A DNA stretch of 48,904 nucleotides from a virus: IMG/VR virus record IMGVR_UViG_3300027816_000146, positions 1 to 48,904 of that record, one strand, 5' to 3'. Positions 4,478 to 43,128 of the stretch are shown in pieces. The notes beneath the pieces were generated by a model. The model was given only the letters and a program-made list of their open reading frames with translations, was not told the origin of the DNA and made no database searches. The position numbers and the translations under genes are program-made. The first letter of the stretch is position 1; every line of letters begins with the position of its first letter.

Positions 4478-4505
4478 TTTATTCCTCCTTCAAGCGAATA
4501 AATTA

Positions 4506-4565
4506 ATATGTGGGCCCCTAACGGCGACCCACATATATTATAGCAAAAAGCTTTTTAGATTACAA
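4506..4565 (-). promoter_or_regulatory. hsp20 promoter overlapped by a perfect inverted repeat
   Basis: TTGTAA (4560-4565), 17 nt, TATAAT (4537-4542) with TGC before it. Immediately downstream lies a perfect nine-base inverted repeat, ATATGTGGG (4536-4528) and CCCACATAT (4514-4506), with a 13-nt spacer, covering the expected start of transcription. It may be an operator, or a terminator for read-through whose 5' arm is lost from messages starting here. It does not match the CIRCE or HspR heat-shock operators. Confidence 0.65.
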
Positions 4566-18146: not shown

Positions 18147-18168
18147 TTGGGGCCCTTTCGGGCCCCAA
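18147..18168 (-). other. very stable GNRA-capped hairpin between ssb and dnaE
   Basis: TTGGGGCCC, loop GAAA, GGGCCCCAA: nine perfect pairs, mostly G-C, five bases after the SSB stop and 13 bases before the dnaE start. There is no T-run after it, so it is not a standard terminator; it may stabilise or process the message between an abundant protein (SSB) and a scarce one (polymerase). Confidence 0.75.
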
Positions 18169-21918: not shown

Positions 21919-22025
21919 TACTTATGCTCCTTTAGGTGTCTATTTAAAGTATCGTGAGCAAATATGCCCCAACGAACCTCTGTTTCTTTTTTACATACTG
22001 GACAAATAACTACCTTGCCTGTCAT
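21918..22025 (-). CDS. 35-aa zinc-finger peptide
   Basis: ATG 22023-22025 overlaps the previous stop; TAA 21918-21920 overlaps the next ATG. The product holds VICPVCKKETEVRWG and then NRHLKEHK, a C-x2-C ... H-x3-H arrangement of C2H2 type, rare in bacteria-infecting entities and of unknown role. The coupling on both sides and a plausible metal site support it. Confidence 0.65.
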   Translation of the reverse strand: MTGKVVICPVCKKETEVRWGIFAHDTLNRHLKEHK

Positions 22026-22510
22026 TCCTCCGCCTTCCATACTGGCACAAACTTGCCATCGCTGGTCTTAGTATACAATATTAAATTGTGTTTGAGAAGA
22101 GCCAATAACTCTGAGCGGGAAGGAACCTCAGAAGTATATCCATCATCTAAAATAAACTGATGTATCTTTAATATGTCGCCTTCTGTTAACATATACATAG
22201 ACCATCCAGCATCATCTGGATTACTAATTGGATATATCTTGGTTGGCTGCTGGATCTTACCAGCCAAAATATAATCCTCTACAGTAATCTTATGTCTATT
22301 TAAAAGCTTTGCGGCTTCACGTAAGGTATATGCTTTTTGCATATGCTTATTAACTAAAGAATAGTTATACATAACTCTACGTCTCTCTGGGTAGCACCAG
22401 GCAACTATCTCATCTCTTGCACGAGATACCCGCAAAGATTTATGTATTTTTCCGTCTAAGAAAAAATAGAGTAGTCTTTTAGGTGTTCGAATTCTTTTTG
22501 CTCCAGCCAT
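22022..22510 (-). CDS. MerR/excisionase-type helix-turn-helix protein
   Basis: A 162-residue protein. Residues about 64-125 have the helix-turn-helix-wing pattern of excisionase and MerR proteins: AYTLREAAKLLNRHKITVEDYILAG, then a wing with QPTKIYPISNPDDAGWSMYMLTEGDI. The N-terminus is basic and aromatic. It may control early gene expression or bind replication DNA; no integrase is seen, so excision is unlikely. The start (AGGA four bases before ATG) lies 55 nt inside the upstream gene; a later start at residue 47 is possible. Confidence 0.65.
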   Translation of the reverse strand: MAGAKRIRTPKRLLYFFLDGKIHKSLRVSRARDEIVAWCYPERRRVMYNYSLVNKHMQKAYTLREAAKLLNRHKITVEDYILAGKIQQPTKIYPISNPDDAGWSMYMLTEGDILKIHQFILDDGYTSEVPSRSELLALLKHNLILYTKTSDGKFVPVWKAEE

Positions 22511-22644
22511 CGTCCTAATGCGCTTCTATCCTTGTTAATCATCCAACGCTTTCCACACATTATGCAGAAAAGCTCTACGTGTAGTTTTTGCGAAAAGACT
22601 CTGTCCACAAAGACTCTTCCGCCACACTTTTGACATTTCATCAT
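22456..22644 (-). CDS. zinc-ribbon protein, 62 aa
   Basis: MMKCQKCGGRVFVDR then LFCIMCGKRW: two C-x2-C pairs forming a zinc ribbon, with a basic/acidic helical C-terminus. Such ribbons resemble transcription-factor or RNA-binding domains and recur in this phage (five other Cys-rich small proteins). ATGATG start overlaps the phosphoesterase stop. Role unknown. Confidence 0.65.
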   Translation of the reverse strand: MMKCQKCGGRVFVDRVFSQKLHVELFCIMCGKRWMINKDRSALGRWLEQKEFEHLKDYSIFS

Positions 22645-23447
22645 ACCTTAAACACCTTACCATCTACAACGCATGAGTAGTCTGGTGACACTTCAATAAT
22701 TTGTACATGCGGCCATTTGCCATTCTCAATGTGAGCAATAGCAAAACCTTTTTGCCAGTCATGGTGCTGTGCATACTTCATCCCAGAGCTCTTTGGATCA
22801 CACATGTGTCCAATTTCGTATCCACGAATAGTTTCTCCCTTACCTTTATTACGCAATTCGTACGTCTGGAAATGGGAGGCAATTCTATGTGAGTGTCCAC
22901 GAATCAATGATATCTGTAGATCGTTCATATCTTTTCTAACTGCTCCTGTATCTGCTACTGATAGACCGTGATGAACATGGATATCTCCGTAGCGCTTCTT
23001 AGGCAATTCATCATAATAAATATAATCGTAGCCAAGGCTATCTAAATTCCATAGCGCTTCTGGCGTAACAACTTTAATATGGTCTGGCAACTTTGCGTCT
23101 ACATAGTTAAAAATACGTATATCGTGATTACCTAGAGCAGTAAATAGTTCTGCATTCTTTCCAGCGACTTCACGATTCATAGCATAGAAATCTCTTGCGC
23201 CTTTTGCTTCATGCTGCATGAGCGGCATAATTGAATGTCCGTTTTGATCTTTGTACATTCTTAAAAATTCTGCAGATCTTCCTTCTGTGTACTTGCTGTA
23301 GCATGCTTGGTCGTCGGTATCTCCAAGAATATCGACTACATCTGGCTTCCACCATTTCATTACCTCAAACCACAGCTTTATCATTTTGTTATCCTGATAA
23401 GGGAACTGCTGATCTGACGATAACATCCATTTGAGATCGTTTGTCAT
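22641..23447 (-). CDS. calcineurin-like metallophosphoesterase
   Basis: A 268-residue enzyme with the family motifs in order: SDQQFPYQD (D-x-Q in place of D-x-H), VDILGDTDDQ (G-D-x2-D), FTALGNHDIR (G-N-H-D), DIHVHHGLS (H) and LIRGHSHRI (G-H-x-H). These bind two metal ions and cleave phosphomono- or diesters. Phage forms may act as DNA nucleases or cyclic-nucleotide/dinucleotide phosphodiesterases; the substrate cannot be read. The Gln in motif one is a known variant. It is the first gene after the late terminator and its promoter, so it heads the replication block. Confidence 0.85.
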   Translation of the reverse strand: MTNDLKWMLSSDQQFPYQDNKMIKLWFEVMKWWKPDVVDILGDTDDQACYSKYTEGRSAEFLRMYKDQNGHSIMPLMQHEAKGARDFYAMNREVAGKNAELFTALGNHDIRIFNYVDAKLPDHIKVVTPEALWNLDSLGYDYIYYDELPKKRYGDIHVHHGLSVADTGAVRKDMNDLQISLIRGHSHRIASHFQTYELRNKGKGETIRGYEIGHMCDPKSSGMKYAQHHDWQKGFAIAHIENGKWPHVQIIEVSPDYSCVVDGKVFKV

Positions 23448-23462
23448 TATGTCCTTTAATTA

Positions 23463-23497
23463 GAAAAAGTTGCGGGTAGCAACTCGCATACCCGCAA
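23463..23497 (-). terminator. rho-independent terminator at the end of the tail module
   Basis: TTGCGGGTA (23497-23489), ten-base loop, TACCCGCAA (23478-23470), then CTTTTTC. Nine perfect pairs and a T-run. It ends the long structural transcript. Its 5' arm coincides with the -10/start region of the following promoter. Confidence 0.85.
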
Positions 23498-23524
23498 TTG
23501 TAACATTTATTTCTGGTTTGTCAA
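23497..23524 (-). promoter_or_regulatory. strong promoter of the replication block
   Basis: TTGACA (23519-23524, perfect), 16-nt spacer ending TGT, TACAAT (23497-23502). The -35 overlaps the stop codon of the last tail gene. The expected start, about 23490, lies just past the 5' arm of the terminator, so messages starting here cannot form that hairpin. Confidence 0.75.
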
Positions 23525-23955
23525 AAGTCTATAGTTTTCATTTCTATTGCAATCCAATTTACTATAACAGTTTGTGATGTTGCCTTTAGGTTTGTAGATA
23601 CTACCTCAACCCTGGCGCTACGCTCATTATCTGAGGTGGCTCTTACAGAATAACTTGTTTCTGTAGATAGATTAGATGCAATTGTTGCAACGATTGTAGG
23701 GGCCTTTGTAAAGTTTGTATTTTTAAATGCGAATTGTACGCTATTTCCATTTACCTTTACTTCTGCTTGACCCACGTCAACGATTGGAAATACTCTAATT
23801 TCTTTTTGAATTCCGCCTACGGTAGTATTTGTCAAATTAAGCATGCTGCTATTATTTTCATATATGCTACTGATGTTTCTTTGTAATTGATTTAATTTAT
23901 TTACATCAATAGGTGCGCCAGCATTAAATACTACGTCTGGGTTGAAGTCTGTCAT
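23521..23955 (-). CDS. tail-tip or receptor-binding protein, 144 aa
   Basis: Begins MTDFNPDVVFNAGAPIDVNKLNQLQRNI, a pattern seen at the start of baseplate and fibre-associated phage proteins that dock on a helix, followed by a beta-rich half (VGQAEVKVNGNSVQFAFKN ... APTIVATIA ... QTVIVNWIAIEM) like small H-type-lectin or tail-fibre tip domains. Last gene of the tail module, sharing ATGA with the preceding one. Inferred role: host contact or fibre attachment. Confidence 0.6.
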   Translation of the reverse strand: MTDFNPDVVFNAGAPIDVNKLNQLQRNISSIYENNSSMLNLTNTTVGGIQKEIRVFPIVDVGQAEVKVNGNSVQFAFKNTNFTKAPTIVATIASNLSTETSYSVRATSDNERSARVEVVSTNLKATSQTVIVNWIAIEMKTIDF

Positions 23956-43100: not shown

Positions 43101-43128
43101 CAAAACCCCCATAAAAATGGGGGTTTTG
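43101..43128 (-). terminator. rho-independent terminator after the major tail protein gene
   Basis: CAAAACCCCCAT, TTTT loop, ATGGGGGTTTTG: a 12-pair stem with the T-run inside the 3' arm, as in many terminators that also work on the other strand. Lies 18 nt after the stop codon. Confidence 0.85.

Follow-up and report, generated by a model that had tools for sequence, protein, structure and literature searches.

How does a phage keep transcription of its tail genes out of its replication genes when the promoter of the latter lies on the end of the former? This question is raised by a locus on the minus strand of a 48,904-nucleotide stretch of viral DNA (IMG/VR record IMGVR_UViG_3300027816_000146), which is called the window here. 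Tail genes lie upstream of the promoter, and genes for a metallophosphoesterase, a helicase, a primase-like protein, a DNA polymerase and RecA lie downstream. The last tail-side ORF (23521-23955, minus strand) has no family match. Its TGA stop codon (23523-23521) lies under the -35 hexamer TTGACA (23519-23524), which is conserved in relatives and is followed, after a spacer of 16 nt, by the extended -10 element TGT-TACAAT (23497-23505, hexamer 23497-23502). The promoter thus matches the hexamers at 11 of 12 positions and carries the additional TG. Transcription would be expected to start 6-8 nt downstream of the -10, at 23489-23491. The first gene of the replication-side operon, encoding the metallophosphoesterase (PHROG 221, 22641-23447, minus strand), is preceded by the Shine-Dalgarno sequence AAGGA (23452-23456), of which AAGG is common to most relatives. 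Because the promoter sits tight against the stop codon, a terminator would find no space ahead of it. The usual order is seen, in contrast, at 43128 of this genome, where a strong hairpin precedes a promoter-like box. A preliminary description of the locus had reported TTGACA, TGT-TACAAT and a stem at the promoter; all letters and positions were found to be correct, on the minus strand, which that description had not named, as was the placement of the promoter over the end of the last tail-side gene.

The stem in question, hairpin A, is formed by the arms TTGCGGGTA (23489-23497) and TACCCGCAA (23470-23478) on the minus strand, with nine perfect pairs and a loop of 10 nt, and is followed by CTTTTTC. 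The sequence check bore out that its 5' arm begins at the final base of the -10, so that A is present only in read-through RNA; RNA started near 23490, the expected position, would lack nearly the whole arm, as had been proposed. In folding calculations RNA arriving from upstream prefers A, at -16.5 kcal/mol, and the read-through segment folds better than its shuffled versions (z = -3.5 to -3.7, with no shuffle equally good). Perfect stems with 9 or more pairs, 4 or more of them G-C, and a loop of 3-13 nt number only five on the whole minus strand of the window; two of these, at 23497 and 4536, start precisely where a TGNTAnAAT box ends. The chance of a stem starting exactly at a -10 end, as A does, is about 0.0005 per site. 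Stem A is therefore not a product of chance. Stem A was not found in relatives, where the arms at that position reach at most 7 weak pairs, and no exact copy of the window's element was found in IMG/VR.

A second hairpin, B, had been missed in the preliminary description. It is mutually exclusive with A and lies wholly downstream of the expected start at about 23490. Its arms GAGTTGC (23479-23485) and GCAACTT (23467-23473), both on the minus strand and in register with the helix of the family, form 7 bp in the window around the loop TACCC. UUUCU follows the stem, and the U-tract TTTTT (23464-23468, minus strand) contributes its first two bases to the pairing. A terminator scan of the window listed B and not A, and for RNA beginning at 23490 or 23491 the predicted fold is B, with about -7.8 to -8 kcal/mol. 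B in the window has both an intrinsic-terminator hairpin (5-10 bp with G-C pairs) and a U-tract (TTTTTCT). Strength was rated by a d'Aubenton-type terminator score, in which positive values (>0) denote a terminator. The window scores -12.9, below this threshold, and groups with relatives that have short U-tracts; in its own subclade the U-tract is decaying. Promoter RNA keeps B, so that it loses A yet is not free of a terminator.

The conservation of these elements was followed in metagenomic relatives from IMG/VR, and the evidence is sequence-based throughout. The metallophosphoesterase protein alone fetched 80 loci, 76 of which have the promoter. In nearly all relatives TTGACA, a 16-nt spacer and TGYTACAAT stand just before the gene, and the promoter is kept where the upstream genes are different. 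Protein-fetched loci, pattern-search loci and large contigs together gave 108 distinct leaders; since the pattern search is biased towards leaders that have the usual stem, values for the protein-selected subset (n = 51) are reported as well. A typical relative has the leader TGTTACAAT-TACTGTAACATC-AAAGTCACG-TACC-CGTGACTTT-TTT-...AAGG...ATG. A stem of 7 bp or more that includes 3 or more G-C pairs is present in 100 of 108 leaders against 2.6 expected, and in 43 of 51 in the subset. The outer pair of B begins 11-14 nt after the -10 in nearly all relatives, that is, past the start, and in most of them B ends at about +28 to +31 of the promoter RNA if transcription starts 7 nt after the -10. In an alignment of 28 leaders all 220 cells of the 8-pair B helix are standard pairs, and double-sided changes occur in seven of the eight pairs; when the helix is slid as a control, pairing drops to 25-53%. 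The window's B occupies the same alignment columns as the family helix. By this comparison, B and not A is the structure conserved across relatives. An Rfam search with the leader of the replication promoter gave no match even at E = 1.

Of the 108 promoter RNAs, 83 have terminator scores above zero, against 0-1 among shuffles; the protein-selected subset gives 28 of 51. Read-through RNAs score as terminators in the same number of cases, 83/108. The U-tract, taken as 6 T among 9 positions at the stem end, is present in 89/108 leaders and absent in some lineages. Several lineages have kept the stem and lost the U-tract (the AGGCCATG..CATGGCCT group) or have only an A-T-rich stem; B is not a classical terminator in either case, so the stem may have another job there. 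The very stable hairpin AGGCCATG..CATGGCCT was seen at the same leader position, without a U-tract, in L061, L062, L072, L073 and L078. Among 15 contigs of relatives, 70-120 kb long, 13 carry the module as a single copy. When L001 is set against the window (22641-23520), the phosphoesterase is identical and the leader quite different; compared in this way, leaders turn over faster than the phosphoesterase protein.

Most relatives carry a further hairpin, P1, made of TGYTAC from the extended -10 and its complement GTARCA at the start site. As the -10 itself supplies the 5' arm, RNA started at the promoter is unable to form P1. At least five of the six arm bases pair in 80/108 leaders (12 by shuffling) and all six in 65/108 (0.7 by shuffling), with corresponding values of 32/51 and 21/51 in the protein-selected subset. 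The free base of TGN and its P1 partner change together (T-A 59, C-G 18, T-G 3, other 3). The T-A/C-G state switches about ten times on the phosphoesterase tree; when only well-supported branches are counted, four independent pairs are left, all concordant and too few for significance. In the 28-sequence alignment 89% of P1 cells are paired and a single P1 pair shows double changes. P1 is thus real and widely conserved in the family on comparative grounds, and it suggests that a read-through-only hairpin which uses the -10 region as one arm is under selection. In the window P1 is gone and A stands in its place. The notion of a hairpin confined to read-through RNA therefore survives as a conserved theme, while stem A itself, the form in which it was proposed, was found in no relative. 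Promoter, B and P1, together with their conservation and covariation, are read from the aligned leaders themselves.

The explanation favoured here, with a probability of roughly 0.55, is a conserved promoter and leader-terminator module at the border of tail and replication genes, which would stop tail read-through and attenuate the replication operon. The near-consensus extended -10 promoter would start RNA at about 23490. Hairpin B would begin 5-8 nt past the start and, with its U-tract, would act as an intrinsic terminator, probably strong in most relatives and weaker in this phage. Being complete both in tail read-through RNA and in promoter-born RNA, B would end most of the tail-operon read-through, at about 23464, and also some of the promoter transcripts, which would be released as RNAs of about 28-31 nt. 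Since B would take a share of the promoter transcripts, expression of the replication operon would equal promoter strength times read-through. An additional hairpin with its 5' arm in the -10 region would be present in read-through RNA only: P1 in most relatives and A here. In this phage A is predicted to replace B in read-through RNA and may strengthen termination there. From the arrangement of these elements we infer the start site, termination and attenuation. Such a module would provide the structural/replication border of a widespread group of freshwater phages, related to Rhodococcus and Streptomyces phages, with a control element that is compact, strongly conserved and present in a single copy.

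B might instead serve mainly as a stem-loop at the 5' end, protecting the early mRNA or presenting its ribosome site, with a secondary role for the U-tract. We regard this as unlikely, though worth serious consideration. The stem stands 5-8 nt from the expected 5' end, at a near-constant distance, and persists in the lineages that have no U-tract; against it, most leaders carry the A-tract and U-tract of a classical terminator, and 83/108 have positive terminator scores, against 0-1 in shuffles.

The preliminary description offered a different model, in which stem A terminates, promoter RNA without the 5' arm escapes fully and the locus is a one-way insulator. Stem A is real, exactly placed and unlikely to arise by chance, and its stability in the window is twice that of B (-16.5 against -7.8 kcal/mol), B being weak here. 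For the window alone, a partial asymmetry of this kind is possible. However, A was found in no relative, whereas B is retained in promoter RNA and its conservation includes compensatory changes, and the terminator of the relatives is identical in both RNAs. The proposed escape of promoter RNA is not supported, as this RNA keeps B and its U-tract and B is evolutionarily conserved. Nor is insulation by a truncated hairpin arm the design of the family, B being complete in promoter RNA both in the window and in relatives. Because B is part of the promoter's own transcript in this phage and in almost all relatives, it cannot be a one-way stop, and we consider full one-way insulation improbable. The case carries a warning that a terminator found beside a promoter may lie inside the promoter's own transcript.

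We hold it equally doubtful that an antiterminator of the lambda Q or AlpA type loads at the promoter and carries polymerase past B as a timed switch. As in lambda pR'-tR' (Q) and Pseudomonas aeruginosa PalpB-tB (AlpA), a strong promoter is followed by a nearby intrinsic terminator in its own transcript (PMC6606751, PMC9371919), and the operon encodes a conserved helix-turn-helix protein (22022-22510). In contrast to those systems, the -35/-10 spacer, which is the site of the AlpA element and the expected site of a Q element, holds no element conserved in relatives, and the terminator here is very close, ending at about +30. The model of the helix-turn-helix protein is MerR-like; the PDB contains no relative of it by sequence, and neither Q nor AlpA appeared among the hits listed. 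Kinship with Q or AlpA, sought by profile, model and fold search, was not supported.

Still less likely is a role of P1 or stem A in the DNA, as an operator that covers the -10 and start site and is bound by a dimeric repressor. Perfect dyads do span both elements in many relatives, but the half-site spacing is variable, with P1 loops of 5, 7, 8 or 9 nt, and because of this variation P1 fits an RNA hairpin better than an operator of fixed spacing. The roughly ten joint switches of the -10 base and its partner also argue against an operator, as does the best local candidate regulator, which is 98% identical between L002 and the window, P1 being perfect in the former and absent from the latter. 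No second-copy match was seen in 15 large contigs. P1 was also considered as an operator of the operon's own helix-turn-helix protein, and no link between protein and site was found. A further rival is the recycling of polymerase from a terminator to a nearby promoter, which was shown in vitro in single-molecule experiments (PMC6978380); a terminator and promoter within tens of bases, as here, would favour such re-use.

A close likeness to the read-through-only hairpins is found in the leaders of T4 genes e (lysozyme), soc, 49 and I-TevI, where the promoter lies inside a hairpin whose 5' arm is made only in read-through RNA (PMC3014915). RNA from the inner promoter lacks this arm, as would RNA born at the expected starts downstream of stem A, P1 and the outer hsp20 stem described below. 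The T4 hairpin, however, hides the ribosome site and acts on translation, whereas in the window the 3' arms end well before AAGGA, and Shine-Dalgarno sequence and start codon are not sequestered as in gene e. The conserved terminator is here, unlike in the T4 leaders, a separate hairpin that is present in both RNAs. With the T4 lysozyme precedent acting on translation, a sensor of transcript origin that acts on termination or decay would be new. In Tn916, which has the canT antiterminator, terminator T1 likewise shields replication genes from upstream transcription (PMC11658703); there, the insulating terminator stands apart from the driving promoter and the system requires an antitermination element, of which none is known here. 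A literature search on promoter-terminator overlap in phages gave no direct precedent beyond the T4, Q/AlpA, Tn916 and recycling systems.

Among cultured phages the same gene order is found in Rhodococcus and Streptomyces phages, and from these relatives we infer an actinobacterial host. Intrinsic termination in mycobacteria, the best-studied actinobacteria, differs from that of E. coli (PMC12288462). In Streptomyces phage Sham, TTGACA-17-TACACT is followed, 13 nt after the -10, by a hairpin of 9-12 bp with a T-run (CTTTTG) and then by the metallophosphoesterase; no clear promoter-hairpin layout was found before this gene in Trina, BillNye, Angela and Naboo. Before the holin gene of Streptomyces phage Angela (L087, 3240-3310), a CCTCCC/GGGAGG hairpin carries the -10 in its loop and the Shine-Dalgarno sequence in its 3' arm. 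Read-through RNA would hide the ribosome site there, and the arrangement resembles that of T4 gene e (PMC3014915).

The start-straddling geometry recurs in the window at the hsp20 gene (assigned by PF00011), where TGCTATAAT is directly followed by the stem ATATGTGGG/CCCACATAT (4478-4545, minus strand). An inner stem near the expected start is a general feature of 32 distinct hsp20 leaders from relatives; in 19 of these leaders the stem extends back as far as the -10, has 8-12 pairs and shows compensated arms (ATATGTGGG/CCCACATAT, ATATACGGG/CCCGTATAT, ATATGCGGG/CCCGCATAT and others). Since these arms do not share their sequences with the arms at 23497, no single operator explains both sites. 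It is conceivable, though on balance we doubt it, that hairpins straddling the start site, such as P1 and the outer hsp20 stem, are a general device that marks read-through RNA, the two classes of RNA being differently terminated, processed or stabilised. If so, RNA from upstream would fold differently at internal promoters than RNA born there, the genes being shared.

Several further features of these genomes were observed. The hsp20 leaders of the window (4478-4545, minus strand) and of loci L223-L302 have in common an extended -10 that runs directly into a covarying hairpin of 9-12 bp, and a second conserved hairpin in them, TTTATTC..GAATAAA, encloses the Shine-Dalgarno sequence and is thermometer-like. 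In Rfam, freshwater-2 RNA was a weak, full-length match to the window's hsp20 leader (19.5 bits, gathering threshold 49.9), and none of 12 relatives of this leader gave that match. At about 1411-1425 of the window (minus strand), TGCTATAAT is followed after 6 nt by the ATG of a small lipoprotein-like ORF, an arrangement that suggests a leaderless phage mRNA. A hairpin at the 1425 promoter was set aside as a 6-bp match within the coding sequence of this apparently leaderless ORF. Just before the DNA polymerase gene (18147-18168, minus strand) stands a perfect hairpin, TTGGGGCCC-GAAA-GGGCCCCAA, without a U-tract. In many relatives a second promoter, TTGACTAA..ATGATATAAT followed by AGGAGG, recurs in front of a small tail-side ORF some 1.3 kb upstream (L003 1690, L010 1677, L025 1625, L037 1677 and others).
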